A stretch of DNA of 64,000 nucleotides from Liolophura sinensis. Lineage: Eukaryota > Mollusca > Polyplacophora > Chitonida > Chitonidae. The position numbers were made by a program, and so were the translations under genes. The DNA lies in assembly GCF_032854445.1 (NCBI RefSeq), contig NC_088295.1, positions 51,503,249 to 51,567,248 on the forward strand. Reading direction: 5' to 3'. Shown piece by piece: positions 459 through 50,624 of the stretch. The notes below the pieces were generated by a model, which saw only the letters and a program-made list of their open reading frames with translations, was not told the DNA's origin and did no database searches. The stretch's first letter is position 1. Every line of letters starts with the position of its first letter.

Positions 459-3400
459 GTGTTGAACTGGTCGGGCCGTCTAAGCGGGTTTGGGCAGGGA
501 TTGTCATTGAATATTTCTTCGCATTGGGCATCGTGCTTCTGGCAGGCATCGCCTTCCTTATCCGGAACTGGCGGTACCTGCAGATCGCCGTCTCTCTGCC
601 ATCAGCGCTCTTCCTCGTATATTGGTGGTGAGTTCCTGTAAACATATGGCTGGGTATAGAATTCAATAGGCACTCCTCATGACATACAAGTTATAGGTCG
701 AAGATGATTTGACCGCTGTTCTCTTACCTTACCACAGAATAAACAGCTTACATGAAATACAGAAAGCTTATATCTATGTCAGCAATATTTTTTTTATTCT
801 TGTGATATACATGGTGGTAGCGATATAACATCCACAGTAACTTGGTCAGTATGATGCTATTATACCACTGTTAAATAACCATAGTATCTATTGATTTCAG
901 TTTAAAGGAGAAGAAAATTGAAATATCAATTAAATACCACTGAAAAGAGTATGCATTTCCTCGCAGGTGCATGACATAAAAACAATATGTCAATATTTCT
1001 AATATGTACGTCAAGTTGATAAGTTATAAATAAAGTCAGCACCAAAATCTGCTGTGGGCGACTCCATTTTGCCTAAGAACAAGTCCTGAAGTCTTCTGTG
1101 TTAGGAGGAGAATTGCCGTCGGAAACCACCGAAGTGCAGTTCGTACATTTCCGGTAGAACTCTTCTTCCCTGAAGGTAGCGAAGAGTACAGTTCGTTTTC
1201 CGCTTGACGATCGGGAAACCGGAATGTTGAACGTAGGTTCCGAGTTTACACGAACAAGCCGGCAGTTTTAACCACTCTCATTGGCTGAGAGGCAACACAT
1301 CTCAGCATAAATCACAGGGTAGTAAAGATGAAGGACACGATGAACTCAGCGATTTATGCCAGTTTTGCCGTTTTTAGACTTTACGTGTATGACGATGAAA
1401 GATCGCAAAATTATACAGATAGAAAAAAATGTGCTCTTTTTAGCCTATAGCGTCATTGTTTAAATTTTCTTCTCCTTTAACAGTTGTCCAATCTAAATTT
1501 CCAAGTCTTCTAGTGCAGTCAGAAACTATTTTGATCATGACACTACAACACAGGATTGTTTGATCTGGGGTGCATGTTTACAATAGCAATGTCTTCTTTT
1601 CATCATTGGGGATTATGTCTAGGAACCGCCTGTTTGTTTAATGTTTAATGATTAAATTAGATTAGCATTGGGATTATCTTTACGTCCAACATGTCATCGT
1701 TGTCGGTAGTTCGTGTGAATGTCTGTCTAAACAGTTAGTTTGGTCACAGGTCTTGGATTTAAATTTATCTTTTTAGCGCGTTTTCTTCATAACCTATTTT
1801 GTGAAAGAAATGAATGTATTCATGTGGAGATTTGATTTTGTGTCTGGCTACATTTTTCTATGAGATTTTGATTTGAACCAGGATAATACCGGAATCTCCC
1901 CGCTGGTTGATCGCTAACAAGAGACTAGACGAAGCAGAGGAAATCCTGAGGCACGCTGCGCATGTCAACAAGGCCAAGCTTCCGGAAAAACTGTTTGATG
2001 AGAGAGAGAAAGAGGTGGGTGGTGAGTCGACGGCGACCTACTCCGCCATCCTGCATTCGCCAACACTTCTCACAAGGTCGGCCATCCTCTTCGTCAACTG
2101 GTAAGTGCATAGCTGCTCAAGACTTAATTAGCGTCATTAACATAATAAATTGCGGGCTTTACATGGCACGACACATTTTCAGAAAATATAGACGGATTAA
2201 TAAACTTGATACACTGGCACAGTTTTTGTATGCATCGCAAGGATTCAGTTTAGCATAAGCACATGTGTCTGTCAAAATGAACAAAAAGTCAAAAAGCCGT
2301 CAAACTGTACAAACATTTTTGTCACTGATTTTGCACTGTTATTCATAAGTGAACCCTTGTGCGAAATGTTTATTGAACACGGGAAGAGACTGCTGTATAT
2401 AAGATAAATAGAGCTAAGTTCTCGGTTCATCGCAGAAGAAACTCTTGTCTTTTGCTGCACCATAGCATTCATGATTTCAGTAGTTAAGTTTGGCTAAATT
2501 GAGAACACTAACACTTAGGTTTTTAAGTAAGTATGCATCCAAATTAAAAGGTTTGTTGGTAAACTTTGTGTTTGTAGGCTGGTAATCAGCATGGTCTACT
2601 ATGGCCTATCCTTAAACAGCGGCAATCTAGCCGGTGACATCTACCTCAACTTCTTCCTCGTCGGCCTGGTGGAGTTTCCAGCGTATACTCTATGCTTGTT
2701 ACTATTAGACAGAATCGGTCGAAAATCTCTTTACTGTGCTTCCATGCTGTCAGGTGGCATTGCCTGTGTGTGTACAATATTCCCCAGCCTCTATGCCAAC
2801 CAAGGTTAGTGGCCTTTGCTTGCCGTTTTGTATTTTTACAATTGGAATTTGGTAAATGTTAATAATTATTGAGATGTTATTTATATAGTTACATCTATAG
2901 TATATGATTTCTTTGTAATATGTATGATAAGTTTTTATGTTAATCTGAAAGGGTATGAATTGGTGCCATCCGGGAAATGAAAAAAAAGTAGACTGATTTT
3001 GTTTTAAATCGCTTTCAGCATTATTTCTATCATGTTTCAAAACAGTGCCTACTGGAATCGGGATAGTCACAATGCCGCCATCTTTGTCATGTTCATACTG
3101 AAACAACATTTTGAGGAAGCCAGACATCCATCTTATGACAATTTCTACTACTATTAATACTTCTTGACCGTCTATACCTGTTCTGATCGGATTAAAGGTC
3201 TGACACCTGCGGATGGTCGTGGGTTTCCCCCGCGCTCTGCCCGGTTTCCTCCCGCCATAATGCTGGCCGCCGTGGTATAAGTGAAATATTCTTGGGTACG
3301 GCGTAAAACACCAGTCTAATAAATAAATAAATAAATAACCGATCGGATTAAGTTTTATCTCAAAGACCAGTTTCGTTCATAAAATGAACATCACAATCTG

Positions 3401-5540
3401 TTAAAATTATATATATATAACTGTAATGGAAGATAATTACCTGGAAGCAGAAGTAGTCAACAGTTTTAATTTACTTTTGCACCCCGGATACCACCAAGAT
3501 ATAAGATACTGTTGTATCCCAAATACCAACAACATCACTGTTGCTTCCCAGATATGAACGAAAGACAATGTTACTGTTACAACCCTGATAACACCAAGTT
3601 ACAACATTACTGTTGTATACAAGATATCACCAAGGTACAACATTACTGTTGTATACCAGATACCAGCAAGGTACAATAATGTTGCATCCCAGACCTCACC
3701 AAGATATAACATTACTGTTGTATACAAGATATCACAAAGGCACAACATTACTGTTGCATACCAGATACCAGCAAGGTACAATAATGTTGCATTCCAGACG
3801 CCTCCAAGATACAACATTACTGTTGTGTACAAGATATCACCAAGGTACATTACTGTTGTATACCAGATACCAGCAAGGTACAATAATGTTGCATCCTAGA
3901 CACCACCAAGATACAACATTACTGTTGCAACTGCTCGGAAAGACACGTGTGTAATAGCTGTCGCCTCAAATCCAATATGTAGTCCACAACACTTTTATGT
4001 TTAATACGTTGAAAGGTCCATATCTGTGCAAGTATTATACAAAATATCATGCTTTGGAGCAGAAAAAGGTATGACGCTTTTATTGCAAATGTTCATATAA
4101 ATACAGCGGTGATTTTACATCCGTGCCATGTTTGTACAGCTCCTAGACCTCACCCTGGTTCCCAAAGATCTATGTATGCCCCTTCTGTGAGTCAGATTCA
4201 CGTTGTTTCAAAGAATGTCCTACTATCAATAAATGGATGGTGGATAATTGGATATGCTTATTTTGCAGATCTCCAGTGGGTCACTGTGATCTTGGCAATG
4301 GTAGGGAAGCTTGGGGCGGCAGCTGCCTTCGCCATTGTCTATGTCTATTCATCTGAGCTGTTCCCCACCGTCGTTAGGAATAGTGCCCTAGGGGCAGCTT
4401 CCATGTTTGCCCGGGCCGGCGGTATGATCTCGCCCTACATCTCCGATATGGTGAACACAAGAACTATCATTTCTATCAAATATATATTCTAAACCATTAG
4501 ATCCGCTCACAGCAGAATATTTCACTTACCCTGCACCAGGGATGTAGTAAACACAAGTACTTTTCTATCAGTTACATTATATATTCTTAACCATAAGATC
4601 CCGCTATTCATGAGCGTTTCACATTGAAGACCAAGCCCCAAGCGACTGTGTTGTTGCGGGAATCCATTACAGTTCTTGACCATTGATGGCGCAGATTTAG
4701 CTGATCTCTAAATCAGGAAGTTTCTCAGGCGCCATTTGAAGTGCAGTGGTTTCCGCGGGCTTTTACTGGTTTCCTCTGCACATAAACATAAGTGTCCCCG
4801 TATAAGAGAAAGACACCTAAGTGGGCAGTAAAAACACCAAACAAGTACATAATAAATACATATAAATACTCTCTTGATATGTTGATATAACAATATATGG
4901 TAAGATAGCGCGGTATTTAGTGACACGTACACATTCATCCAATCCTGTATTAGACACGACATTATAGTAAGTAAAGCTTAGTATTTGGTTCTGCAGAGTG
5001 ACTTTGTCGGCGGTGACATCGGGAAGGCTCTACCTCTGCTGATTTTTGGGGTTTCCGCGGTCGTCGCTGGTCTCCTGTCGCTCGTGCTGCCAGAGACTCT
5101 GAACAAAAAGCTGCCTGAGACAATAGAGGACGGGGAAAAACTTCGGCAGGTATGTTCATCCCCACACTCTTCAGCAATGCTCACGTGGTTGTCAAGGAAA
5201 CACTCTGAAAATGTTGGTTCTTTACTTGATACTCGAAGAGCATACATGCAGAATTCTTGCGGGCTCTGAAGATTTCAGCCAGTGGCAATGGATGTCTATG
5301 CTTTGAGGTAGCTTACTGTGCATACAGATACATTCTAAGAACAATCCAGAGTAACCTTCGATCATTTTTGTACAGCTGTAATGAAAACCTTCTATACGTT
5401 CTGTTGTGCTCGGAAATTATCTTCTCCTCATTTCTTTTATCCAGAACACGTATAACGGGAGAAATGGAAGTTGCCACTATGGGGAAGGCCGGGAAATCGC
5501 GGAGTTTCTACGGCACATACATGTACAGATCCAAATATGA
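459..5540 (+). CDS. SLC22-family organic ion transporter, 3' six exons (5' end outside window)
   Basis: Exons read as 459-627, 1882-2100, 2578-2804, 4269-4450, 4997-5149 and 5445-5540 (stop TGA 5538-5540). All borders are AG/GT and the phases join without a break, giving 347 residues, about the C-terminal two thirds of a usual 550-residue SLC22 protein. In order one sees GVELVGPSKR, two membrane segments, the family signature PESPRWL followed by a charged cytoplasmic loop, two more membrane segments, DRIGRKSLY (MFS loop motif), SSELFPTVVRNSALG with the next two membrane segments, a last hydrophobic segment ending LVLPETL, and LPETIEDGEK. Known role of the family: plasma-membrane transport of organic cations, anions or zwitterions by an MFS fold. 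I cannot tell the substrate class from this part. The short C-terminal tail after LRQ is poorly conserved and is the least certain exon. The first exon enters in phase 1, so at least one exon precedes the window. Confidence 0.92.
628..1881 (+). other. SLC22 intron
   Basis: It has a GTGAGT donor at 628 and a CAG acceptor at 1879-1881. I see no gene, SINE or tandem repeat inside. The smaller introns 2101-2577 and 5150-5444 also look empty. Confidence 0.6.
3196..3340 (+). mobile_element. 5'-truncated family-1 SINE in SLC22 intron
   Basis: The copy contains only the central domain (gggtttcccc...ctgcccgg) and the 3' tail ending in (AAAT)n, without the tRNA-like head. It is flanked by an exact 11-bp direct repeat, gatcggattaa, at 3185-3195 and 3341-3351. 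That is the target-site duplication expected of LINE-driven insertion with 5' truncation. Confidence 0.88.
3480..3937. repeat. 105-bp higher-order minisatellite (36+36+33 bp)
   Basis: Between about 3600 and 3935 subunits of 36, 36 and 33 bp alternate in a fixed order (…gtatacaagatatcac, …ataccagataccagc, …gcatcccagac), so the true period is 105 bp with about three copies; degenerate units precede it. It lies in an SLC22 intron. The open frames seen on both strands are a by-product of a period divisible by three. Confidence 0.85.
4750..4862 (+). repeat. degenerate family-1 SINE body and tail
   Basis: Weak but ordered similarity to the SINE central domain and tail (ggtttcctctgca, gtataagagaaa, gtaaaaacaccaa) ending in an A/T-rich tail, within the SLC22 intron 4451-4996. 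No clear duplication flanks it. Confidence 0.5.
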
Positions 5541-6489
5541 CAACGAATCTTTAACCATAGAAGACTGACATGTCTCTTCAGGAAAGAGGAGACTTTTTTT
5601 GTGAAGGAGCTACAGAAACACCAACACTCCGCCAACTCCCCAAGTATTTATAATGACTGAACAGGCCCCGGTTTCATTAATCCCATATCCGTATTGTTCT
5701 TATAACATACGTTATCATGGTAGTTAAGGGGCTACTGAGCTATGTGTACCTCATGAAACTTCGACCTGGTACCAATTCTACAAATACAATTTTCACTTCA
5801 TTTAGCCAGATTTCGAAATTTGGTTTAAATGCTTGTTTTTGGGCTAAAAATTTGAGTTAAAATGGGAATACCTAATAAGTGTTCTACTAATACAAACCTG
5901 TCACAGTTTAAACTTCTTGGGTCTTAAGCTACATGTGTGAATATATAGTGAGCTTTTAAATTTTGGCTGAAATCATAACAAACCCATTTGAAACAGACCA
6001 TTATCTGTACAATGGGCCAGATTATTTGAAAAAAAAAAACAGATTTACGTCATGCATTGTATTTACTATTGTATTGAAAATGACTGGTGTGATGAACGAC
6101 TTAAGAGTATTCCTGTCACTATTGCCTGATGTGAAACAGTTGTCACCTATAATAGTTGACGAGATGGTGTAATAAATTATATCTACTGATCGATGGGGGA
6201 ATGAAAAATTTTGTGGGGTCACATAGACAGCCAGTATGTCACAGCTCGTTGTTATCTCACAGTACTGCTCTACGTCATCGTCATTTTACGGCGATAATAA
6301 TACACAGAGAATAAAACCGTTACACAAATTGATGAGGATCTGAGTATGCTGGGCATTTCGTCCTTAGGGTCGTTATGGTAGGATTCTCAGTTACACAAAT
6401 TAAAGAGCGCTGCAGAATGAGGGCTTAAAGGCGTTAATGCGCGCTGATAGCTTTTACCAATTCTGTGCATGCAATCTTGCAGGACAGAT
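5541..6489 (+). other. SLC22 3' flank and probable 3' UTR
   Basis: A candidate polyadenylation signal AATAAA lies at 6171-6176 and another near 6310. At 5663-5761 a possible old MITE shows a loose inverted pair (ggtttcatta / tcatgaaac). No further coding sequence is seen. Confidence 0.4.
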
Positions 6490-7015
6490 AAGCTCGCGTG
6501 TACTGTAATTGATCAGTTAACCATAGTTGTGCTGTCCCAAGACAGTTAACCACAAGCGTCTTTTAACAGTACAGTTAATGACACTTGTACTGTCACAGTA
6601 CAGTTAACTACTCGAGTACTGTCACGGAATAGTTAACAACACTTGTATTGCCACAAGACATTTAACCACACGTGGACCGTCACACGATAGTTAACCACAT
6701 GTGTATTATCACAGGGTGGTTAACTGTCACAGGTTAAATCACAGGACAGATTACCACACCTTTACTGTTACAGGACAGATACCCACACGTGTACTGTTAC
6801 AGGACATATAACCACACGTGTATTGTTACAGGACATATAACCACACCTGTGTTGTTACAGGACATATAACCACTGTGTACTGTCACTGTTGAGATAACCA
6901 CACGTATACTGACAGGTGAGATAAGCACATGTGCTCAGTTACAGGGCAGATAACCACACGTGTGCTGTTACAGGACAAATAACCATACGTGTGCTCTTAC
7001 AGGACAGACAACCAC
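6490..7015. repeat. degenerate ~29-bp tandem repeat
   Basis: About 18 imperfect units of the form acaggacagataaccaca plus cgtgtactgtt. Similarity is best from 6740 to 7010 and fades at the left end. Confidence 0.75.
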
Positions 7016-8267
7016 AGGTTAAGCGCCAAGTCAACACAAAGAAACAATCATGAAACAGAGCGCCAGAAGTCTGAACTCTATGTCCATATTTACTTACAAG
7101 AAAACTGTACTCATTGTAAAACTTAAGAAACTTAGAGTGAAGCCGTTTGATGGAATAACTTTGACACTCTATTTTTTGAAGTAATAACTTGTGTCGTTGA
7201 TTGAAATCGTCGCACAACACGCTTGATCTAACCAGCTTCTACAAAGTAAGGATAATTTACAGTGTCAAAATTGAAACTATCCCTCTTGTCGTAAAGTCTG
7301 CGAGAGAGGAAACCGTTTTGGTCTTTGCACAAATATAGATCCAGATTAGATTTACCAGAGTCTGTGGTTTCCTTTAAATCCAGCGAAGGTGGAGGTGGTC
7401 TCAAACACCCACCATACAAAAATTCTTTTCAATATTTTTTCTCATTCAAAAAAAAATTGAAAAATATATTTAAGATCGTATACATACCTACCTTTTCAAA
7501 CTCTTTCGTCTAACGTAATTTTTGCGTTCTCCACTTTATCTGTCTTGTCAATATAACTTCTGAACCCAATGTCTTAATGTATCTTGCGAGACAGAAATTG
7601 TAGAGGTCATGTATTGGATTTTCGGTCGTAAAATTCACGCTGATTCCTGTAGTCTTGTGAACCTTTTTATTAAATCCGTGGTCCGTTAGCCAATGAGGAC
7701 ATACTTCCGGCTTTACATCACTGCTTTGTCTGTGGGAAGACTAGTTAGACAGTGAGCTGTGTTAGTTGACGTGACAGTAAACGTTGACAGCGGACTACAA
7801 TATTACTTGTAGGCACTGTCTAGAGAGCTTAGAGTCCATCTACTTACGCCAACTCGATCTGCAACCTCTGAAATTGGAAGAAAGTTCCGGAAAAATTGTC
7901 CACCTCTTTAAGCTTGATTTGAGTACAGCTTCTGGAAGCAGACCTCCAACCGCGTGGACAAAAGAAGACAAATCGAGTCGGCCGCATGACAAGTTTGTCT
8001 GCTTCAGTTGAAAGTGGCTGCACCCGTGTATCTATATTTATATGGTCTAAACCACATTTAGAGAACAGTTACTAGCTTATAAAAAAAATCGTAAAAAATG
8101 ACGAATACAATCAACATAAACCTTAAAATTTTTTATTATTTGACAGTCAACAATGTTGAGGAGTTTTCTTTGGAGATTTCCAAGTTACACTTAGTCATGA
8201 AGAGGGTTGTTTGGGCATATGTACGTAAGTGAATAAGCTTAAAGGATGAAAAAAAGGAGAGGATCGG
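7016..8267. other. no recognised feature
   Basis: AT-rich DNA with short open frames only (for example 7784-8011, +). None matches a family I know and none has good splice borders with a neighbour. Confidence 0.4.
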
Positions 8268-8597
8268 GCCGTGATCTTATGGTTAAAGGCGCTAGGAAAC
8301 ACGAGGTGCACGTTTCCTGATTTGAACAAGGAATTTGTAGATTTCCCTTCTCTCACTGCTTGGTCTGCTACGCTCGTATGACTGTTACGCAATTTATCGT
8401 TCGTTGAAAATCATTTACCTTTCACCAATATGGTGTGCATATCTGTATGTCACGTGTGAAATTTCGTCAGTAATTAGCCAATGGTCAGTGGTTTACCCCA
8501 GGCACTCTGGTTTCCCCACCCATAAAACTGATCTCCGTTGTACAAGTGAAAAAATCCTTATACCTGACGTAGCAATCAAAAAAGTGAACAAATAAAG
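8268..8597 (+). mobile_element. family-2 SINE, near full length
   Basis: A tRNA-like 5' region (ttatggttaaaggcgct, then tgatttgaacaa as a decayed B box) leads into a block containing aaggaatttgtagatttccc. It ends with a degraded form of the central domain and tail of family 1 (gtggtttaccccaggcactc; gtacaagtgaaaaaatcc) and an A-rich end. A second copy lies at 49214-49541 and a fragment at 34574-34624; the comparison of these copies defines the family. Confidence 0.7.
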
Positions 8598-8620
8598 GCA
8601 AAACATCACCGCACTTGGAT

Positions 8621-8871
8621 TTGATTGATTTGTGTTTTTACGCCGTACTCAAGAATATTTCACTTATACGACGGCGGTCAGCATTATGGTGGGTGGAAAC
8701 CGGGCAGAACCAGGGGGAAACCCACGACCATCCGCAGGTTGCTGAGACCTTCCCACGTACGACCGGAGAGGAAGCCAGCATGAGCTGGACTTGAACTCAC
8801 AACGACCGCATTGGTGAGACTCCTGGGTCATTATACTGCGCTAGCGCGCTAACCATCTGAGCCACGGAGGC
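8621..8871 (-). mobile_element. full-length family-1 tRNA-derived SINE
   Basis: Read on the minus strand it runs from a tRNA-like head (gcctccgtggctcag; A box TGGCTCAG, B box close to GTTCAAGTCC) through agctcatgctggcttcctct and the gggtttccccc domain to the hairpin tail taagtgaaatattcttgagt and a short T/A tail. Family-1 copies here are about 250-280 bp long. Confidence 0.88.
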
Positions 8872-9010
8872 GTTCTTGGTAGGTTAAGACTAGGCTTGTC
8901 GAATACGGCACTTCAAGTTTCATTTATATTCCCCATGTACTACTTGTACTTTTAGTTTTAATTTCTTGCACGCAGAAACAATATATTCAAACACATGATA
9001 CGTTGGAAGA

Positions 9011-9137
9011 TCCTGCAGCAACCTGCGGATGGTCGGGGTTTCCCCCACGCTCTGCCCGGTCTCCTCCTACCATAAAGCTGGCCACCGTCGTATAAGTGAA
9101 ATACGGCGTAAAACATCAATCACATAAATAAATAAAA
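9011..9137 (+). mobile_element. 5'-truncated family-1 SINE
   Basis: It starts inside the element at gcaacctgcggatggtcg, and ends with (AAAT)n. Ten bases of the tail loop (attcttgagt) are missing, leaving gtgaaatacggcgtaaaac. No clear target-site duplication. Confidence 0.85.
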
Positions 9138-12100
9138 TCCAACGCATGAGGTTAAAGTGATAAATGAACAACTTACGATGCTATCAAAACTCTTTACTTT
9201 CAAAATAAATCCACGTATGGCAAGACGGAAAAATAACGTCCTGGCTTCCGTTGAACTGATTTATTTCACCAGAATCCATGAAGCAAATGAACGGGTAGCG
9301 TCTGCAGGGACTTGGGATTTGTTTTAACAGTGGAATCATTGGGCGCAGAAATAAAGATTAGCACCAGGTGGGACGCAGCATTGATAGGTGAGACCTGTGA
9401 GCCGACCAATCGGGGAGCGCTCAGATGATCATCTTACTGGCGAGACCCTTGTTCCCGAAAGAAATTTGGTTTTTCATTATTCATAGACATCCGTCACACA
9501 AAATAGGACCATTTCAATCTTTAGGTGTAATGTGAACTGCCACATGTCCGGAAAGCTGACTGCGTGGCTGGGCTAAAGGTAGCAGTAAATCAGCCAAACG
9601 CCGGTAGAGATGGTGTGCTGCTGGTAAAAATGAAAAGGACAGCCAGAAATGCTATTTGCTTTGATGGTGTCAGTATTAATTATTCAATGCTGTTATGATG
9701 TACCGATCTGAATTTGCCCTTCCATACTGGGTTATTCTGGTCCGACCTCGCTTTCAAAGAAATCCTCGCGGTTGAGCCTATCGGAGTTGTTTGCGCGAAG
9801 ATTTGTCCTCGTTGGGCGACGACTGATTGGTCGAACGAAGAAGAACGGTCGGTGAGATACGAGTCTACTTCGGCTAGCCTCGCTCCCAAGAAGCCTCGCT
9901 CTGAGATCCTGCAAACGGCTAAGAAGCTGCGGATTGCTAGTGACATGATCCCCTGCCACAGGTTGTGTGGCGGTGTCAGAATTCGGCTCACCACTTGACA
10001 GCGGTTTGTTCATTAGCTACAACGAAACAACAGCAACGTATATAAATAAAACATGAACGAAACATAAACTCACAGAAATTGTATAGGCTGCATTGAATTT
10101 TCAAATAGCTTTTAATGGGATATCATTTTTCAGTATCTTTCAATGTCGTTCCTTGTGAGAATGTCGTTAGAAATTTTGGTTGTCATTTCTTATGTCGGTA
10201 AACCTTACTAGTTTTATATAAGGTAGAACCCCAGCGCTGGACCTTCCAAAATGCAGACAGACTAACTTATGTTTATTAAATAGATTCCGATCGCTTAAAA
10301 CGTCGAAAACGGAATAAAAACGGTAGAATCTGGTGGTCAAATATCATAAAATCTACTCATCTACGCTGGAGTATCCGTTGACCTTGTGACGTCGCGGCGG
10401 TACATTCCCTGTAGGCACGTGTGGCTTCTCTAGGAGTACGACACAGGTCACAGGAGACAATAGCTGTACTTTAACAATTAATTCCGGACTTATTCCATGC
10501 TCAAGTGTGGCTTTGCGACCGCAGTAAAACAACGCAGCGTACTGAAAAGTTACATACATAGCATAAAAATGCCACAGACTGAGAAAATGTGATCAAAAAC
10601 CTCATCAAAAACATCGTTGATTACGGAGGTTTCGATGGTAGTCGTATGAGACTTGCTAATTCAGCCATGCCTACTAAAATAAAAGGTCGATTGACCAGCC
10701 TTCCCCCCCCCCCCCCCCCCCGAAAAAGTCCAGATTGTCACCCCCGGAATGCAGTTTTTTTAGTTACCGACTTCTTGAAACTACAAGCTGTGACACGAAC
10801 TGTTGGGAGCCGCTAGCCGTTGTCCTACAAAGGCCACGTGGCTACAGGGCGGTCCTCCAGCTCAGTTCACACCTCTCCTGCAGGCCGGGGTGCACGCGTG
10901 ATACCCCGACAACATTCCGTACCTTGAACCCCATAACGGAACTCAGACAAAATTTTAATTGGCATTTCCATGTGTTACCAATCGCTGTTTCCATTCATTT
11001 TAATTCAAGCTTTATTTATTTTTGCCGGTGATACTTATATAAAACATAAAAGATTAACTTGATTGTTAATTTAAAGGGTGTTGAGCAACAGGTTGTTCTC
11101 GTCGCTGCAACTCACAATTAGTTGGCCCGACTGCATGGATTCTCTTGTCGCAGCCGGTAGGACTATCCCTCCACTTGACTATAACAATATAATCTGCGGA
11201 CTGTTAAATCAGGCTAAATTCTCCATTAGCATAATTGCATGGACGTCCAATTCGTGACAAACAAACCGGACGGTATGCGAGCGAAAATCGGCCATCGTAT
11301 CGCCCAGTCGCTATGATGTAAATGCTATGAAATACGCTATGATCTAATACAACTCCGGTATCTTCCAAAATATTTGTTGTAAAACTGTTTTACTTACATG
11401 TATATGATTTTCAGGGTGCTGATTAAGAGATGTACACGCAGGACCATGGCTCCGCGGCCCACAAGATAGGCAGACGGTCCCACTTTAATGGGTTGTTTTT
11501 TTTTCAAGTGGAACTAGTCCAAAAAATATTTTTTAAATGCAGTTTACATTCTTACATAGCAAAAATATTGAGTCTAGGGAGCATTTAGTATGAAAATAAA
11601 GACGTTGGGGTTCTCCTTTAAACAGTTTATTAAAGTTGTGACAACTACTTGTGTATATGGTGAGACTAGCACAGACAGGAACCCTATTCAAGCCAGTATG
11701 TGAATCATGACTTGATTCTTGATTAGAGGCCCTCGGTACTTTGCAGGATACGTAGTACTAAAGTCTGTTTCTTTTAGCCAGTTGCCTATAGTCAAATGTC
11801 TGTAAAACTTGCCTTTAGTTAGTGACACGCAACAAAACGCGCTCTACACATGGATATGTTACAAGTTCATACTCTTGGAAAGAAAATGAAATTAGTACAC
11901 CTTTTTTAATTAATAATGTTAAACTGCATAAGTCTGGCTTCCTCTGCAAGAACTCACTGCCTTAGGTGGCGACATAATTATTAAAAAAACAGCGGCATGC
12001 TGGACATTGGGGAGTTCAACATGTTTTTTTTTTGGGGGGGGGCGACACGAGTTATCTAAACTGCTATCGACTTTACTGTAAACCCTGTTTGTAACACTGC

Positions 12101-12915
12101 CATATTTGAATTCTTTACACGTTTTAATATAATACAACCTTATTAAATGAATTTTATTTTATTTCTTGTAGTTATGATCTCACGGCAGTATGGTTTTAGA
12201 CTTGGATGTTAAGAAATTCTGTAATAAAAACAATGTAGTCTATTCGAGGAGACCTTAGTATAGGGTGTGTTATTGCGTGGCGTTTGTTCTAACCGCTTGT
12301 TGGTGCAGTCATTGTAAAACAAATTACCCTCCACGCTCTTTTGTCCAGCATGCCACTTGCTTTCGAATAATCATGACGTTAGCCGAGGCAATGAGTTCTT
12401 GGAGTCGAAACCAAGCTTATGGAGTTTAACATCATGCATTAGAAAAAAGTATTCTAACTGCATTTTCTTTACAATAATATGCACGTCCAACATAGCAGAG
12501 TGTAAGAGCTTGTGTGAGACGTGTCGCCAACTAAATGTAATTTTGGTAGCAAGATAGATGAATATAGGCGACTGGCTACAAAAGAAATCGGCTATAATAG
12601 ATGGAAAAATTTTCATATTTAAAACGACTCTAGGTACATGGTAGATAGTACAATTAATAGTTGACGGTCTTTCACAGCCAAACAATACCATGGACTATTA
12701 ATAATATCAACTGCCCATAACACTCCTCGTTCCTGTGATATACAAAAATATTAAACGAAAAGACAACGAGTAATATTAAACGGCAAATGAATATTTGACT
12801 GGCTTAGAATAGGATATAGGATACTTAGAACAGCCATTTCATGCGATTGTTGCATTCAACAAAATTTATGAAATAGACTTGTCGTATTTTCATTGCAATT
12901 GTCGAATTCAACGAG
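9138..12915. other. no recognised gene; GC-richer patch at 9714-10013
   Basis: The patch 9714-10013 is open on both strands (94 residues each) and richer in GC than its surroundings, but I recognise no domain and see no matching splice partners. A poly-C run lies at about 10705-10721, and a T/G run near 12023-12041. The rest is plain AT-rich sequence. Confidence 0.4.
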
Positions 12916-13542
12916 TCAACACGACAAATCACATCGCGTGAAGGCGCCTTTAACAAAGTTTCGGAAGAGGGATGGAAACAGACTATAGACCTTCTCCCAT
13001 CTCACTGTCGTACACCAGGAATAGCAACAGACGAAGCAACAACTCGGTGACAACACCATCCACCGGTTCACGAAAGATGCGTAGAGCCTTGTAGAGCCTC
13101 TGTGTTGAATCAAAAAGCCTAGACTTGGTCTGATATAGACGCCACGATTCGTCAACAAAGACGTTGCACTTGTGGAGAAACGAGGTAGCTCGCGCTGATA
13201 CATCGCATTAACTGGGACTAATATAACAGATGTTATATTATCTGTTATATTAGTCCCAGATCTTCCGCAGAGGCGTTTGTTCATTCCGCAGATCATCCGC
13301 AGAGGCGTTTGAACATTGGGAACATCTACAACCCAGTCAGGTGTCCACACGGGCGTAAGATAAGCTTCATATTGGGCGCATCTTAATAAAACATGAAGCT
13401 GCCGCGGAGTTCTCTGAAACATTGGCATCGTCTTGTTTATTTTTGGTGTTACGGCCGAGTGTGATTGGTGGAGTATTGTCCTACAGTATTTTTTTTTATC
13501 AAGGCCTTGGGTACCAACACAGTCGTTATCAGATTCAACCAC
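12916..13542 (-). CDS. unrecognised 208-residue open frame
   Basis: This is the longest non-repetitive open frame in the window, from an ATG at 13542 to a stop at 12916. I recognise no domain, signal peptide or membrane pattern; a cysteine-rich patch (SCCFVCCYSWC) lies late in the frame. The DNA includes a perfect 19-bp-stem hairpin (13213-13258) and a direct repeat of ccgcagaggcgttt (about 13265 and 13296), unusual for a coding exon. It lies about 460 bp downstream of the insulin-related exon on the same strand but no join is evident. It may be chance or part of an old mobile element. Confidence 0.2.
   Translation of the reverse strand: MVESDNDCVGTQGLDKKKYCRTILHQSHSAVTPKINKTMPMFQRTPRQLHVLLRCAQYEAYLTPVWTPDWVVDVPNVQTPLRMICGMNKRLCGRSGTNITDNITSVILVPVNAMYQRELPRFSTSATSLLTNRGVYIRPSLGFLIQHRGSTRLYASFVNRWMVLSPSCCFVCCYSWCTTVRWEKVYSLFPSLFRNFVKGAFTRCDLSC
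13213..13258. repeat. perfect inverted repeat, 19-bp stems, 8-nt loop
   Basis: tgggactaatataacagat at 13213-13231 is exactly complementary to 13240-13258 around the loop gttatatt. It sits inside the unrecognised open frame 12916-13542. Confidence 0.9.
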
Positions 13543-14001
13543 CCGTGACCTAACATTTAGTCATAATTAAGTCTGTCAATAAGAAAAACAAAAAACGTAG
13601 CATTTAATTCCTTTCACCGCAAACAGGTCTATTGCTTGAATTCAGATTTGCCAAGGGGATATGCAAAATCCCTCATTTTCGAAATTCTTCCCTACCTGAA
13701 GTAGGAAAAGCTTTTACTTTTCGTGAGGTTGCCATGGTTGTGTTGCCGTCCATGTTTAGGTAGGACTACATATCCGCCACTAAACAGCTGCGTTTTCGGG
13801 TTAAAGAAATACCAGGCTCATGTAATACGGCGGCGCTTTCGATTTTCTTCACATGCGTCTTTTTGCTTTCTTTGAGATGCGATATTTCCAAAATGACAAA
13901 AATAAAGAGGTACCGGCATGCTTTTTAAACTTTATGTCTAGTGATCCCAAAACGCTAAAAAACGATAAAAAATCTGGACTACTGCACGTGGAGATACTTA
14001 C

Positions 14002-14183
14002 CAGCCGTTCAATTTCGGCCGTAGACGCTAGATCCGCTTTGTTGTCAGTAGCACAGTAGTTTTCCAGATCCATCAGTGTACATGGGTTCTCACAGCACTC
14101 TTGTATAATACCTCGGTTTTGAAAATGGCGCTCGTTCCCGGAAAGAAATTCTGTTGCAGGTCTCTTTGCTACTACAGGCACAC
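14002..14183 (-). CDS. insulin-related peptide precursor, exon with C-peptide end and A chain
   Basis: Read on the minus strand, an acceptor TTGTAG precedes 14183 and a donor GTAAGT follows 14002. The exon opens in phase 1, the phase of the conserved intron in the C-peptide of insulin genes, and holds 60 codons. After VPVVAKR (a dibasic site) and a spacer ending RHFQNR comes GIIQECCENPCTLMDLENYC at 14112-14053. Its cysteines have the insulin A-chain spacing CC-x3-C-x8-C, starting with Gly-Ile and ending LENYC. The A chain does not stop there: 17 more residues (ATDNKADL…) run into the donor, or, if unspliced, 50 residues more to a stop at 13849. Known role of the family: a secreted hormone with disulfide-linked A and B chains acting on a receptor tyrosine kinase. 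I could not find the B-chain and signal-peptide exon on the minus strand to the right, so the gene is incomplete here. Confidence 0.85.
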
Positions 14184-14389
14184 CTACAATAAAGTTAACT
14201 GAAAGTTTAAAATAAAGTTGTATGCTACAGTAAAAAAGTTAAACCAGTAAGGTATGTTTCACATCATGCTGTTCGAACTGATTTATTTCCCTTTCACATT
14301 AGGTTCAAATACCACACGGCGCACAGAGTTACAAAATTACCACCGCAACTGATACCGTAGGCCCAGGTACTTAAACTCATATTATACGC

Positions 14390-15001
14390 TCTTGTTCTTA
14401 TGCCATGCTTACGCTCAGGTGTTAACATCACACGATTGGGTACTTATACCATACGCTCAGGTGTTAACATCACATGATAGGCTACTTATACCATACGCTC
14501 AGATGTTAACATCACACGATAGGGTACATATACCATACGCTAAGGTGTTAACATCACACGATAGGGTACTTATGCCATGCGCTAAGGTGTTAACATCACA
14601 CGATAGGGTACTTATGGCATGCGTTAAGGTGTTAATACCATACACTCAGCTACATACATCATACGCGCGAGTGCTTATACCATATGCTCGGGTACTTATG
14701 CCATACGCAAAGGTGTTAATACACTCAACTACATACATCATACGCGTGAGTACTTATACCATATGCTCGGAACTTATGCCATACGCTAAGGTGTTAATAC
14801 ACTCAACTACATACATCATACGCTCGAGTACTTATACTATATGCTCAGGTACTTATGCCATGCGCTCAGGTGTTAATACCATACACTCAGCTACATACAT
14901 CATACGCTCGAGTACTTATACCATATGCTCGGGTACTTATGCCATACGCTAAGGTGTTAAATACCATACGATCGGATATTAATTACATGCACTCGGGTAG
15001 T
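14390..15001. repeat. 21/42-bp minisatellite, segment 1
   Basis: Units such as cttataccatacgctcaggt plus gttaacatcacacgatagg repeat at 42 bp, made of two diverged 21-bp halves (core taccatacgctcag). It continues after SINE interruptions at 15420 and 16013. The 186-residue open frame here is repeat-derived. Confidence 0.88.
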
Positions 15002-15212
15002 GCCTCCGTGGCGCCGTGGCTAGCAGAATAACTCATAAGCCTCTCACCAATGCGGTCGCTGTGAGTTCAAGTCTAGCACATGGTGCTCTCCTGGCGTACG
15101 TGGCAAGGTCTGAGAGCAACTTGCGCATGGTTCAGGGTGTTCTCCGGCCATAATACTGGCCGTGTAAGTCAAACACTCTTGAGTACGGCGATCCAAAATA
15201 AATAAATAAATA
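15002..15212 (+). mobile_element. diverged family-1 SINE inside the minisatellite
   Basis: tRNA-like head (gcctccgtggcgccgtggct; B box gtgagttcaagtc), eroded body, tail cttgagtacggcgatccaaa and (AAAT)n. It is the most diverged near-complete family-1 copy in the window. Confidence 0.85.
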
Positions 15213-15419
15213 GACCGGTTTTTCGCATTACCAGTACCGTTGTTACCACCCCTGTTCTAATAACATGCCACTGGGGCCAAATGTCTGGGCTACATTTTGG
15301 CATGTTCATCTGCGATCATCATTACTTTTCTGAGTGAAAGGTCAGGCGAGTCCCACAGCCTGAACAGTGACATTTATACCGACGAGGTATGAAAGCAGCA
15401 TTCTGCAATATGCTCATTT
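15213..15419. other. unique spacer between SINE and minisatellite segment 2
   Basis: About 200 bases without repeat or gene signal, before the 21-bp units resume. Confidence 0.5.
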
Positions 15420-15737
15420 GTTAAAACCATATAGTCTGGTGCTTATACCATATGCCCAGGTACGTACACCACATGCCCAGATGTTAATACCACACACCGA
15501 TGCAGGTTCTAATACTATACGCTCAGATGTTAATACCATACGACCAGATGTTAATACCACACGCTCACACACTTACACCACACGACCAGATGTTAATACC
15601 ATACGCTCACACACTTACACCACACGACCAGATGTTAATACCATACGCTCACACACTTACACCACACGACCAGATGTTAATACCATACGCTCAGGCACTT
15701 ACACCATACGCCCAGGTGATAATACCATGTGCTCGGG
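15420..15737. repeat. 21/42-bp minisatellite, segment 2
   Basis: 42-bp units (gatgttaataccatacgctc then acacacttacaccacacgac) of the same 21-bp origin as segment 1, regular from 15520 to 15700. Confidence 0.88.
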
Positions 15738-15979
15738 GCCTCCGTGACCTTTGGATAGAGCGCCAGCGCAGCGTAATGACCCAGGAGTTTCTCACCAATG
15801 CGGTCGCTGTCAAGTCCAGCTCATGCTGGCTTCCTCTCCGGCCGTACGTAGGAAGGTATTCCAGCAACCTGCGGATGCTCCTGGGTTCCCCCGGGCTCTG
15901 CCCAGTTTCCTCCTACCATAATGCTGGCCGTCGTCGCACAAGTGGAATATTCTGAGTACGGTGTAAAACACCAATCAAA

Positions 15980-16010
<31 letters not shown>

Positions 16011-16012
16011 AT
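15738..16012 (+). mobile_element. full-length family-1 SINE inside the minisatellite
   Basis: It runs from the head gcctccgtgacctttgg through gtcaagtccagctcatgctg, the gggttcccccgggc domain and the tail to a long (AAAT)n. Array sequence flanks it on both sides, so it inserted into a pre-existing array; the duplication cannot be separated from the array period. Confidence 0.9.
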
Positions 16013-16803
16013 ATATACCACACTCAGATACCAATACCATGCACTCAGAAACTAATACCACACACTCAGATACTAATACCATACGCCTGATGCTCACCTG
16101 TTCTAATATCATACGGTTAGATACTGATATCACACGCTCAGATACCAATACCATGCACTCAGAAACTAATACCACACACTCAGATACTAATACCATACGC
16201 TCAGATACTAATACCATACGCCTGATGTTCACCTGTTCTAATACCATACGGTTAGATACTGATACCACACGCTCAGATACTAATACCATGTACTCAGATA
16301 CTAATACCATGCACTCAGTTACTAATACCATACGTTCAGATACTAATACCATGCACTCAGATACTAACACCATACACGCAGATACTAATACCATGCGCTC
16401 AGATACTAATACCATGCACTTAGATACTGATACCATGCGCTCAGATACCAATACCATGCACTCAGATACTAATACCATGCACTCAGATACTAATACCATA
16501 CACTCAGTTACTAATATCATACTCTCTGATACTGACACCATGCGCTCAGATCCCAATACCATGCACTCAGATACTAATACCCTGCACTCTGATACTAATA
16601 CCATGCACTCAGATCCTAATATCGCACGCTCTGATACTGATACCATGCGCTCAGATTCCAATACCATGCACTCAGATACTAATACAATGCACTCTGATAC
16701 TAATACCATACACGCAGATGCTAATATCATGCGCTCTGATACTAATACCATACGCTCAGATGCTAATACTTTGCGCTCAGATATTAATATCATACGCTTG
16801 ATG
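16013..16803. repeat. 21-bp minisatellite, segment 3
   Basis: About 37 units of gatactaataccatgcactca. It is open on both strands (272 and 291 residues) solely because the period is a multiple of three; the codons are fully repeat-derived. Confidence 0.92.
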
Positions 16804-17443
16804 CTCACCTGTTCTTTTGTCTTCCTGCCAGAAGAAACCCCGCCCACCACATACTAGACTTAAGCTGTCGGATAAATGTTTACCACAAAACCTCTGTGAG
16901 GCCCAAACGGAGTGGAGGCTGAAGGAAAACTGCCAGCACAGGCAGGGCCAATCCTAGCTGCATGCTTCTTCACAGTGAGCTGAAGACAAAATTCGTGCAG
17001 ATACAAAATTGAGTAATAGAAAAACTGAATTATTGATCACAATACAGGTATTGGTAAACATAAAACGGGTTCCTGTTTAAGTCTACAAAAGTAAATTTGT
17101 TAATGTCTTTATTTCAATGGGGGACCATGTGATTACACGTGAATGGACCTGTTGCATGTAGTAATGCGCACACACATCAACCAGTATACATGTTTGTCTA
17201 ACAGATTTGGACTGTCGGCTGTGAAACTATGAAACATTATGAGTCTAACATACTAAGAAGATCGTCAGATTGAGGGATCACAGTTTGTTTTGTCTCCACG
17301 AAAGACTGATTGCCCACAGTCTGAAACTGAAACCGTCGTAGTTGGACCATTCTGAAAGATATTCACTCCATGAAGATTCTGAGAGCCACTCAGTCTTGAT
17401 GATTCAAACGTGTTCAGTGGAAAACATGAGGTCCTTCTATTTG
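16804..17443. other. no recognised feature
   Basis: Unique sequence without convincing coding potential. I looked here for the B-chain exon of the insulin-related gene on the minus strand and did not find it. Confidence 0.4.
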
Positions 17444-19371: not shown

Positions 19372-20131
19372 TCATTCGTAACGGCAAGGCAACGTTGTCT
19401 CATTAGGCACCCCGCGCCATTGCTGTAAGAACATGTCTCCCAGCTCTTGGACATTCTGGGGTTGGCGTCTCAAGGCACGAAGCCTTCTTTCAATAGCACA
19501 TCTTACATGTTCGATGAGATCGAGGTCAGGTGATCTCGATGGCCACTCCATGACCTCAACACCCGCATTTTGCAGGAAATTTCGTGTCAAAACAGCTGTT
19601 TTTGGTTCATTATTATGTTGGAAGAGACCAGGTCCGTGGGCAGTCATGAACGGCACGAGCTCATGGGCGAAATTGACCAACTTTCTGTACACAGCACTGG
19701 GTATGACGTTCCGAGCACTAGTCCTATGTCAAGCTCGCTCTCTTCCGTAATTCGTCGCTAAACAACCCCTGCTCTATTCATTCATTATACGGTGTACCTG
19801 TGTCAAACTCGGTCCAACATAAGAACGTTGGGGACGGAGATGCAAGCGGTTTTGTATGGTGTGGATAGTTACTCGACCACTAAACAGTGACGTTACTGGT
19901 TGACGCTGCGTTCGTATAAACGGTTACGCAAATGAATTGATTGTCCTCAGCATGTGTCATCACACGTGGCCGTCCTTACCTATGGCGATCAGATGTCGTA
20001 CCCGTTTGATGCAAACATGTCCTTAGGTCGTGAATTGTCCGTCTACTGTATCTCATGACAGCCACAGTAGACTGTTCTGCCTGCAGCATGCCAATTGCAC
20101 ATTCTCGTTCAACATTTGTAAGGCGTGGCAT
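19372..20131 (-). pseudogene. Tc1-like transposase pseudogene
   Basis: On the minus strand an ATG at 20131 opens a helix-turn-helix-type N-terminus (MPRLTNVERECAIGMLQ, then SRRTIHDLR). An in-frame TAA follows at 19978-19976, then GRPRV, the usual hook-like linker. The catalytic C-terminus appears in another frame (19692-19372): GLFQHNNEPKTA where the family has a D-N dipeptide, EWPSRSPDLDLIEH with the final acidic residue, and an RR-rich tail. About 760 nt remain of a usual gene near 1 kb, so part of the catalytic core is deleted. It carries at least one stop, one frameshift and the loss of the second catalytic Asp, and cannot be active. Confidence 0.88.
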
Positions 20132-20312: not shown

Positions 20313-21775
20313 TTATGAGACTGAACACATATACGGAAACTTAGATGAGACTGAGAGAACGGACAGATACCACACAAATATAGTCAACACTCTACATGGG
20401 ACTGAATAAATATACAGAAACTTAGATGAGACGGTCAGAACGGACAGATACCACACAAATATAGTCAACTCTCTACATGGGACTGAATAAATATACAGAA
20501 ACTTAGATGAGACAGTCAGAACGGACAGATACCACACAAATATAGTCAGCTCTCTACATGAGACTGAACACATATACGGAAACTTAGATGAGACAGTCAG
20601 AACGGACAGATACCACACAAATATAGTCAACTCTCTACATGGGACTGAATAAATATACAGAAACTTAGATGAGACAGTCAGAACGGACAGATACCACACA
20701 AATATAGTTAACACTCTACATGGGACTGAATAAAATATACAGAAACTTAGATGAGACGGTCAGAACGGACAGATACCACACAAATATAGTCAACTCTCTA
20801 CATGGGACTGAATAAATATACAGAAACTTAGATGAGACGGTCAGAACGGACAGATACCACACAAATATAGTCAACTCTCTACATGGAACTGAATAAATAT
20901 ACAGAAACTTAGATGAGACGGTCAGAACGGACAGATACCACACAAATATAGTCAGCTCTCTACATGAGACTGAACACATATACGGAAACTTAGATGAGAC
21001 AGAGAAAACGGACAGATGCCACACAAATATAGTCAGCTCTCTACATGGGACTAAACAAATATACAGAAACTTAGATGAGACTGAGAGAACGGACAGATAC
21101 CACACAAATATAGTCAACTCTCTACATGGGACTGAATAAATATACAGAAACTTAGATGAGACAGTCAGAACGGTCAGATACCACACAAATATAGTTAACA
21201 CTCTACATGGGACTGAACAAATATACAGAGAGTTAGATGAGACTGAGAGAACGGACAGATACCACACAAATATAGTCAAGACTATACATGGGACTGAATA
21301 AATATACGGAAACTTAGATGAGACAGTCAGAACGGACAGATACCACACAAATATAGTTAACACTCTACATGGGACTGAACAAATATACAGAAACTTAGAT
21401 GAGACTGGGAGAACGGACAGATATCACAAAAATATAGTCAATACTCTACATGGGACTAAACAAATATACAGAAACTTAGATGAGACAGAGAAAACGGACA
21501 GATGCCACACAAATATAGTCAGCTCTCTACATGGGACTAAACAAATATACAGAAACTTAGATGAGACTGAGAGAACGGACAGATACCACACAAACATAGT
21601 CAACTCTCTACATGGGACTGAACACATATACAGAAACTTAGATGAGACAGTCAGAACGGACAGATACCACACAAATATAGTCAACTCTCTACATGGGACT
21701 GAACAAATATACAGAGACTTAGACAAGACTGAGAAAACGGAAAGATACCACACAAATATAGAGTCAACTAATTAC
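20313..21775. repeat. 81-bp minisatellite, ~18 copies
   Basis: Unit: ctctacatgggactgaataa + atatacagaaacttagatga + gacagtcagaacggacagat + accacacaaatatagtcaa. Variants (gagagaacgg, gagaaaacgg, aacacatatacgg) alternate between units. The long minus-strand open frames are repeat-derived. Confidence 0.93.
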
Positions 21776-28140: not shown

Positions 28141-29150
28141 AAAATGACCTCAACAAATAAAGGGATGAAAATACCTGCTTTCAAAATTGTACGCACACAA
28201 AGGTTTTCTGAGAGTAAGAAACATAACTATATATGTTCTCACCACACTGATATAACACAACTGGATTCCTGAAATGCGAAGGGAGTCCTCATATAAAGTT
28301 CAGGTTATTGCCCATTCAAGACGTCAACCTACCAACCTATTGACGAGAGCTTTACAAGAAGGAAAGTCATTTCAGAATAAATAGTCTTGTACCATTACTA
28401 AAAAAAAACAGGATCCTTATAACGGATGATTCTAACAACTCAAAATGTCTCACAGAAGAACTGGACGCTCAGCAGCGCATATCATACAAACACGTATTCG
28501 CCTGGGATTTCTCCACTCTCCATACAACGATGCCTCACAAAGATTTAATTTTATCATTAATTGTATCAAAGTTCACTAAAACAGCTAGGGTTACATTAAC
28601 GTCAAAAACAATTTTTACTAGTTTTACTAATGACATTAGAAGAATTATAAGAAGATTAACCTTCATGGGACGTTTCACGGTGAAGTTGAATTCACATTGA
28701 ATTGTATTTCTTATAAATAATATCTGTGTATTTCTTACATGTTACCAGGTTTATTTGCTATTCATATATTATTTCTTACATATTCATCCGTGAACTGGTT
28801 ATGATTTAACTTGTTTTGGAAATGAGTCTTGCGATTATGGAGTCAGACTTGGAACGCCAGTAACCGTTATTGAGAAATTTGCGTCTACCATGAACCGAGT
28901 TCACCTCCTCTCTGCCTTTCATCACACTGGTATAACTGTCTGGTACATATTATCTCCACCTTAGTGGGGATTCTATCTGGCTTGTGACACTGCGTCTCAC
29001 CTCATTGTTTGCCTGCTCTACCCTGTCCTATCCAAGTCACAGTCTATTATCATTTCACCCGACACGTACAGTTCTCGCAAATTTCTTGGGATCGGGTGCC
29101 GAATTAGACCCTGTGACTCTCTTTGGCTCAATTTTATTCTTTCTCTATTA
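28141..29150. other. no recognised feature
   Basis: Unique AT-rich sequence; no exon or SINE recognised. Confidence 0.4.
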
Positions 29151-29402
29151 GATTTATTTACTTATTTATTTGATTTGTGTTTTACGCCGTACTCAAGAAT
29201 ATTTCACTTATACGACGGCGGCCAGCCTGATGGTGGGAGGAAACCGGGCAGAGCCCGGGGGAAACCCACGGGTTGCTGGAAGACCTTCCCACGTAGGGCC
29301 GGAGAGGAAGCCAGCATGAGCTGGACTTGAACTCATACCGACGGCATTGGTGAGAGGCTTCTGGGTCATTACACTGCGCGAACCAACTGAGCCACGATGG
29401 CC
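29151..29402 (-). mobile_element. near full-length family-1 SINE
   Basis: Clear tail (ttacgccgtactcaagaata), central domain and tRNA-like head ending gccacgatggcc. It carries small internal deletions after aaacccacgg and in the head, and abuts the 37-bp array. Confidence 0.9.
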
Positions 29403-29429: not shown

Positions 29430-31640
29430 AATTCTTTCATCGCCAGACTTGTCACTCTGTTGATGTCCATCGCTCATCACCAGACTTGTCGCCCAGATGA
29501 TGTCCATCGCTCATCACTAGATCTGTTATTCAGTTGATGTCCATCGTTCATCACCAGAATTGTTGCCCAGATGATGTATATCGCTCATCACCAGACTTGT
29601 CACTCAGTTGATGTCCATCGCTCATCACCAGACTTGTCGCCCAGATGATGTATATCGCTCATCACCAGACTTGTCACTCAGTTGATGTCCATCGTTCATC
29701 ACCAGAATTGTTGCCCAGATGATATATAGCGCTCATCACCAGACTTGTCACTCAGTTGATGTCCATCGCTCATCACCAGACTTGTCGCCCAGATGATGTA
29801 TATCGCTCATCACCAGACGTCACTCAGTTGATGTCCATCGCTCATCACCAGACTTGTCGCTTAGATGATGCCCATCGCTCATCACCAGACTTGTCACTCA
29901 GTTGATGTCCATCGTTCATCACCAGACTTGTCGCCCAGATGATGTATATCGCTCATCACCAGACTTGTCACTCAGTTGATGCCCATCGCTCATCACCATA
30001 CTTGTCACTCAGTTGATGTATATCGCTCATCACCAGAATTGTTGCCCAGATGATGTATATCGCTCATCACCAGACTTGTCACTCAGTTGATGTCCATCGT
30101 TCATCACCAGACTTGTCGCCCAGATGATGTATATCGCTCATCACCAGACGTCACTCAGTTGATGTCCATCGCTCATCACCAGACTTGTCACTCAGTTGAT
30201 GTCCATCGCTCATCACCAGACTTGTCGCTCAGATGATGCCCATCGCTCATCACCAGACTTGTCACTCAGTTGATGTCCATCGCTCATCACCAGACTTGTC
30301 GCCCAGATGATGTATATCGCTCATCACCAGACTTGTCACTCAGTTGATGTCTATCGTTCATCACCAGACTTGTCACTCAGTTGATGTATATCGCTCATCA
30401 CCAGACTTGTCGCTCAGATGATGTTCATCGCTCATCACCAGACTTGTCACTCAGTTGATGTCCATCGCTCATCACCAGACTTGTCGCCCAGATGATGTAT
30501 ATCGCTCATCACCAGACTTGTCACTCAGTTGATGTCTATCGTTCATCACCAGACTTGTCACTCAGTTGATGTATATCGCTCATCACCAGACTTGTCGCCC
30601 AGATGATGTCCATCGCTCATCACCAGACTTGTCACTCAGTTGATGTCCATCGCTCATCACCAGACTTGTCACTCAGATGATGTCCATCGCTCATCACCAG
30701 ACTTGTCGCCCAGATGATGTCCATCGCTCATCACCAGACTTGTCACTCAGTTGATGTATATCGGTCATCACCAGACTTGTCGCCCAGATGATGTCCATCG
30801 CTCATCACCAGACTTGTCACTCAGTTGATGTCCATCGCTCATCACCAGACTTGTCACTCAGATGATGTCCATCGCTCATCACCAGACTTGTCGCCCAGAT
30901 GATGTCCATCGCTCATCACCAGACTTGTCGCTCAGATGATGTTCATCGCTCATCACCAGACTTGTCACTCAGTTGATGTATATCGCTCATCACCAGACTT
31001 GTCGCCCAGATGATGTATATCGCTCATCATCAGACGTGTCACTCAGTTGATGTCCATCGCTATCACCAGACTTGTCACTCAGTTGATGTCCATCGCTCAT
31101 CACCAGACTTGTCACTCAGTTGATGTCCATCGCTATCACCAGACTTGTCACTCAGTTGATGTCCATCGCTCATCACCAGACTTGTCACTCAGTTGATGTA
31201 TATCGCTCATCACCAGACTTGTCACTCAGTTGATGTCCATCGCTATCACCAGACTTGTCACTCAGTTGATGTCCATCGCTCATCACCAGACTTGTCGCCC
31301 AGATGATGTCCATCGCTATCACCAGACTTGTCACTCAGTTGATGTCCATCGCTATCACCAGACTTGTCACTCAGTTGATGTCCATCGCTATCACCAGACT
31401 TGTCACTCAGATGATGTACATCGATCATAGCCAGTGGTCGTCATATGACTGAAAAATTGTTAAGTACGACGTTAAACCCCAAGCACGCACTTACTCACTC
31501 GATCATCACCAGAAATGTAAACTCATTTAATGTACATTGCTCATCACCAGAATCGTAAACTGAGATGATGTCCATCGCTCATCACCAGACTTGTCCCTGA
31601 GTTGATGTCCATCGCTCATCATTTAAAGGTATCAAACCAC
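29430..31640. repeat. 37-bp minisatellite, ~55 copies
   Basis: Unit catcaccagacttgtcactc agttgatgtccatcgct. Two main variants alternate (cactcagttgatgtcc and gcccagatgatgtata), giving a loose 74-bp superstructure on the left and more homogeneous units on the right. One-base-shorter units (gctatcacc) cluster after 31060. It is interrupted at 31429-31498. Confidence 0.95.
31429..31498 (+). mobile_element. 70-bp tail-only family-3 insertion in the 37-bp array
   Basis: It contains gtcgtcatatgactgaaaaa, ttgttaagtacgacgttaaa and an ACTCACT end, nothing else of the SINE. An 8-bp direct repeat tcgatcat flanks it (31421-31428, 31499-31506), and array units continue on both sides. Confidence 0.82.
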
Positions 31641-49541: not shown

Positions 49542-49874
49542 CAATTCTGTAAGCGGTGCAACAATAAAGAAAACAAACAAACAGGCGGAATTAACATTTG
49601 AGGCTGATTAGTGTACCAATCTATATTTCTACTTTTTTTTTGTATTTTATAGGCTTGATTTTTCTTTGATTCCTTCAATTAACCTGATTGCTGATGCTGT
49701 GGTTCAGCAGAATTTGAAACGCGCTGATGAAACTCAGTGGACAAACGTATCTATTGAAATACTTAAGAGTAAGGTATGGGAATAAGGCTATAGACTGCAC
49801 ATACGAGGCTACAGTTCTGACACGCCACTAGGATAGAGAAAGGGGATAAACTATGGAACTTTGAGGGAACAGAG

Positions 49875-50565: not shown

Positions 50566-50624
50566 ACTGTGGGGGAATGATGATAAAAGAGGGAGGAGAT
50601 CCCCTATGGAACCGTGTGAATGGT

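Follow-up and report, generated by a model that had tools for sequence, protein, structure and literature searches.

The window, a stretch of DNA 64,000 nucleotides long, carries two exons of an insulin-like gene on its minus strand, followed downstream by a candidate exon for a C-terminal tail. The A-chain exon and the proposed B-chain exon are separated by an intron in the C peptide, and a second, phase-0 donor ends the A-chain exon. The features of the locus, in the direction of transcription, are as follows.

16809..16979, minus strand: proposed B-chain exon, with acceptor TTTTGTCTTCAG just above 16979 and donor ACAG/GTGAGC after 16809, phase 1
16922..16963, minus strand: hydrophobic stretch opened by an ATG, resembling a signal peptide and offset by one base from the B-chain frame
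16810..16917, minus strand: B-chain reading frame of 36 codons, comprising a signal-peptide end, the B chain, KR and Thr
14184..16808, minus strand: phase-1 intron in the C peptide, about 2.6 kb, with splice sites read from the sequence
14002..14183, minus strand: A-chain exon, comprising the rest of the C peptide with a KR, the A chain and a D-like extension of 17 residues, ending at a GTAAGT donor
13849..14001, minus strand: read-through frame past this donor, 50 codons and a stop, where the precursor would end instead if the donor were skipped
9732..10016, minus strand: candidate last coding exon, with acceptor TTGTTTCGTTGTAG/CTA, phase 0, 94 codons and TAA

The rest of the window contains transporter frames and several classes of repeat. 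Exon-like frames of a multi-pass transporter occupy 2531..5269 on the plus strand, to the left of the region searched for tail exons. MFS_1 matches two of the three frames (E 0.0089 and 1.5e-6), both below the Pfam cut-off, and the third frame has only a chance-like match; the protein resembles an organic cation/anion transporter of the SLC22-like type. A probable Tc1/mariner-like transposase remnant lies at 19372..19728 on the minus strand (DDE_3, E 0.002, below the cut-off) and occurs only once in the window. A dispersed repeat of about 200 bases at 29130..29330 has 10 matches in the window, itself included, the others being 67-93% identical. A second repeat partly overlaps it, has 7 matches (again counting itself) and by eye resembles a tRNA-derived SINE. 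Scans of the window for tRNAs and Rfam families gave no match. Many long arrays of minisatellites (unit length 21 to 411 bases) are found at 14410..16795, 20315..21761, 29437..31428, 42992..44156, 49870..51168, 52682..54079 and 57927..59116. Several arrays fall in the first intron of the insulin gene (14184..16808), which consists mostly of tandem arrays with units of 21 to 126 bp.

The A-chain and B-chain exons

The A-chain exon opens at a phase-1 acceptor read from the sequence, TTATTGTAG/GTGTGCC, whose pyrimidine tract is of modest quality (a simple score places it in the top 13.7% of minus-strand AGs). Its 60 whole codons translate as VPVVAKRPATEFLSGNERHFQNRGIIQECCENPCTLMDLENYCATDNKADLASTAEIERL. 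Within them, the A chain, GIIQECCENPCTLMDLENYC (14112..14053, minus strand), holds four cysteines in the pattern CC-x3-C-x8-C and is followed by 17 residues, ATDNKADLASTAEIERL (14052..14002, minus strand). The sequence-only reading had described the phase-1 acceptor, this cysteine pattern, the 17 further residues and the GTAAGT donor, and all of them are present. It had also described a dibasic site followed by the A chain. A KR does occur, at residues 6-7 of the 60 whole codons, but it precedes the A chain by 16 residues, and the immediate neighbor of the A chain is a single Arg (RHFQNR/GIIQ). The Arg-x4-Arg spacing ahead of GIIQ suits prohormone convertases.

Pfam PF00049 (Insulin) matches residues 10-43 of the A exon (E 1.1e-8, 36.4 bits, cut-off 23). 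Among the best 60 of 73 matched PDB sequences, IGF-II and insulin rank highest, and the IGF-II alignment reaches six residues into the extension (ATDNKA versus ATPAKS). The bare A-chain cysteine pattern is expected 0.13 times per window in 60 simulations and was observed once; with a G[IV][IV] lead it appeared in none of 60 simulated windows. The A-chain and B-chain exons are each single-copy within the window. The A exon, the sole query used against viral and prokaryote contig collections, found no relatives there, as expected for an animal gene.

A B-chain exon had been predicted on the minus strand to the right of 14183, and a matching frame, 16917..16810, was found about 2.6 kb upstream of the A-chain exon. 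It translates as LHSVWASQRFCGKHLSDSLSLVCGGRGFFWQEDKRT and includes the B chain SQRFCGKHLSDSLSLVCGGRGFFWQED (16899..16819, minus strand), the ends of which are inferred. PF00049 matches this frame as well (E 1e-5, 26.8 bits, cut-off 23), and its best PDB match is an insulin B chain (E 1.9e-7). A six-frame pattern scan of the window gave 31 loose B-like matches, of which a single one resembles insulin (16887, minus strand). A stricter B pattern, tightened after the match was already known, is expected 0.03 times per window (60 simulated windows) and was observed once.

The donor of the B-chain exon, GTGAGC, fits six of seven consensus positions and has the phase 1 that the A exon calls for. The phase-1 intron in the C peptide that had been anticipated from insulin genes is supported by a matching donor and acceptor in the sequence, and such an intron is the rule across the superfamily, as described in PMC8286064. 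Together, the two B-chain and four A-chain cysteines follow the standard spacing of the insulin/IGF/relaxin superfamily. The two exons lie on the same strand, in the right order and with facing phase-1 splice sites; this ordered, in-phase pair is not a product of chance.

The ATG at 16963 opens a stretch with a mean hydropathy of 2.18, a value equaled or exceeded by only 8 of the 2870 ATGs in the window, itself included, and the stretch looks like a signal peptide. The B-chain frame is offset from it by one base, which points to an indel in this copy, an assembly error, or a first exon elsewhere. The offset was left uncorrected, and the pieces were searched separately in Pfam and PDB. The acceptor at 16979 ranks in the top 9.9% of AGs, versus the top 1.9% for a second acceptor just above 16918, and an upstream first exon may be spliced to the latter instead.

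The same offset could mark a pseudogene copy from which no precursor is made, its hydrophobic start being out of frame with the B chain. The rarity of signal-like stretches in the window fits this explanation, as it implies that the ATG-led stretch may be a true signal peptide. However, the cysteines, cleavage sites, splice sites and both exon frames are intact, and the offset is explained equally well by an assembly error or by an upstream first exon that uses the acceptor before 16918. A pseudogene is therefore considered quite unlikely.

The extension after the A chain

The sequence-only reading proposed an additional C-terminal peptide, coded either by another exon or by read-through to 13849. 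This proposal gains support from the sequence: the donor CTG/GTAAGT at 14001..13996 is in phase 0 and fits six of seven consensus positions, a candidate phase-0 exon was found downstream, and the frame past the donor is open to 13849. The precursor probably carries an extra IGF-like tail, judging from these features.

With read-through, the donor at 14001 would stay unused and the locus would be an ordinary insulin-like gene, its precursor ending at 13849 with a 67-residue tail that has no role. The 50 further open codons allow this, whereas the close fit of the donor to the consensus argues against it. The piece at 14001..13849 also finds nothing in Pfam up to E 0.1, and related IGF genes are described as having spliced tails. 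Splicing is favored over read-through based on the good donor, the phase-0 candidate exon at 10016..9732, and the arthropod precedent of a missed donor; an unspliced precursor appears improbable.

The candidate exon at 10016..9732 has an E-domain-like composition, with 13 Arg, 1 Lys, 11 Asp/Glu and no Cys in 94 residues. Across both strands of the whole window, 28 ORFs of at least 80 residues have a pyrimidine-rich AG lead, and this ORF is the only one that lacks Cys and contains at least 8% Arg. Some ORF of this kind and length turned up in 146 of 300 simulated regions, and none of the 300 gave one of that composition. The Cys and Arg criteria were modelled on what has been published about IGF tails, with thresholds set after the ORF had been seen. 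ORF length by itself is weak evidence because the region 5600..13990 contains 66 AG-led phase-0 ORFs of at least 40 residues, many of them nested. Another minus-strand frame, and the plus strand too, are likewise open across 10016..9732.

A shorter version of 58 residues, read in the frame of the 94-residue ORF, could begin at an internal AG at 9908. This AG scores in the top 0.2% of AGs and the acceptor at 10016 in the top 3.5%; a first tail scan, cut at the top 2.5% of acceptors, gave 9908 and missed 10016, which was found by reading the sequence. Searched up to E 10, the 94-residue ORF gives no match in Pfam and 12 weak ones in PDB. No IGF is among these 12, which are to haemoglobin and peptidyl-tRNA hydrolase and are taken as chance.

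The extension could instead be spliced to a different exon, for instance to one of the short frames at 13691 and 13695, or additional exons could belong to the tail. Acceptors at 13691, 13695 and 13954 all score above 10016 (top 1.5-1.8% of AGs), and arthropod IGF genes are described as carrying two tail exons, partly alternative (PMC7357564). The frames behind these nearby acceptors, however, are only 9 to 20 residues long, and an intron to 13954 would span 47 bases, which is probably too short. Among the long candidates, the composition of known IGF tails occurs in the 10016 ORF only. A different or longer set of tail exons is unlikely, if not negligibly so, and 10016..9732 has a somewhat better than even chance of being the spliced tail exon.

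Identity and proposed processing of the precursor

The locus is fairly probably a secreted insulin/IGF hormone gene of the six-cysteine type, from an invertebrate, with a precursor that would run through a phase-0 intron into the tail at 10016..9732. Its most likely identity is that of an insulin/IGF orthologue of an invertebrate, bearing a tail of D/E type, based on the combination of a phase-1 intron in C, a predicted phase-0 intron behind the A chain and a candidate basic tail, as in ambulacrarian IGF genes. The gene is of a type already known from other invertebrates.

Cleavage sites seen in the sequence comprise two KR pairs, one following the B chain and the other within the C peptide, and a single Arg ahead of the A chain. 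The two KR sites suggest a cleaved C peptide, unlike that of vertebrate IGF; this and the insulin-type residues retained by the B chain count against the proposed reading. In the proposed pathway, convertases would release a two-chain insulin-like hormone while the short D-like extension stays on the A chain. The precursor would continue across the phase-0 intron into the Arg-rich, E-like tail, so that a total of 111 residues would follow the last cysteine. By analogy with oyster cgILP and the IGFs, the hormone would act on an insulin receptor tyrosine kinase and control growth and metabolism. The tail may be cut off, or may serve secretion, binding or a second receptor.

The molluscan insulin-related peptide (MIP) family is rejected as an assignment because of the cysteines. 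Most molluscan insulins have one extra cysteine in each chain, as described in PMC5996578. The A chain here has QECC rather than CxCC, in agreement with the earlier observation that it lacks the extra Cys pair carried by many molluscan insulin-like peptides, and the B frame has two cysteines.

A six-cysteine framework with vertebrate-like chains in a presumed mollusc also recalls the vertebrate-like venom insulins of fish-hunting cone snails. All seven cone snail venom insulins considered in PMC6372279 have the six-cysteine framework but lack the C-terminal part of the B chain that bears the aromatic triplet, a triplet present here as FFW, and a long spliced tail is not part of the available descriptions of these venom insulins. 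The triplet test is strong but not absolute, since PMC12343078 describes an exception: one venom insulin with a six-residue B-chain extension and low similarity to human insulin. A venom insulin is nonetheless highly improbable at this locus.

The origin of insulin and IGF is under debate, and one proposal derives insulins from a tailed, IGF-like ancestor (PMC8286064, as described there). Finding, in an invertebrate, vertebrate-like chains together with a tail spliced on in the same intron phase would support a single ancestral tailed gene, and this support would be stronger if the host is a protostome. Specifically, this may be a protostome gene in which an insulin-grade B chain (CGKHL...CGGRGFFW) and a cleavable C peptide are combined with an Arg-rich tail of IGF type. 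Its phase-1/phase-0 intron plan would be that of deuterostome IGF genes, and it would stand, as a living form, near the single insulin/IGF gene of the bilaterian ancestor. This reading is tentative and has rather less than an even chance of being correct. If it is true, the tail role proposed in PMC8286064 at a second, LDLa-bearing receptor (GRL101) becomes testable. The locus also carries a warning, as reading through the donor after the A chain makes such tails go unnoticed.

Comparison with known insulin and IGF genes

According to PMC6321970, known sequences have been listed in a table together with their D or E domains, so tailed forms are likely on record. At the level of titles and abstracts, no report of a molluscan spliced IGF tail is evident among the matches listed, and six peptide strings from the window had no match in the literature searched. 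PMC8149454 describes a protostome ILP that shares its structure with vertebrate insulin/IGF and is distinct from the MIPs. The present gene resembles it, by description only, in having vertebrate-like chains apart from the MIPs.

Ambulacrarian IGF genes, as described in PMC8286064, have one intron of phase 1 in C and one of phase 0 following A, and their tail is basic. The phase-1 intron, the predicted phase-0 intron and the candidate basic tail are alike here, a likeness of description rather than of sequence or exact intron place. In arthropod IGF (aIGF), additional exons downstream of the A chain encode the tail, which is missed when the donor is overlooked, according to PMC7357564. The two systems share an easily missed donor after the A-chain region, and the candidate tail here would likewise lie in an extra exon and is Arg-rich, as is part of the aIGF tail. 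Unlike aIGF genes, which are described as carrying the motif GTVxPx(F/Y) in the last coding exon of their partly alternative two-exon tails, the present window lacks this motif in all six frames.

The amphioxus ILP, a chordate protein, combines an insulin-like cleaved C peptide with IGF-like D and E domains (PMC4361685). The present gene is alike in its predicted cleavable C peptide and putative D/E combination, again by description only.

Based on PDB alignments, the gene shares with vertebrate insulin and IGF-II the six cysteines, a CGxHL...LVCGxRGFF core, LENYC, and an IGF-II-like start of the extension. The alignment with insulin shows that the B chain retains the His of CGKHL and the FF of GFF. 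These positions have zinc and receptor roles in insulin, and IGFs carry Glu at the His position. The vertebrate proteins differ from the predicted precursor in that insulin has no tail, while IGF retains its C domain.
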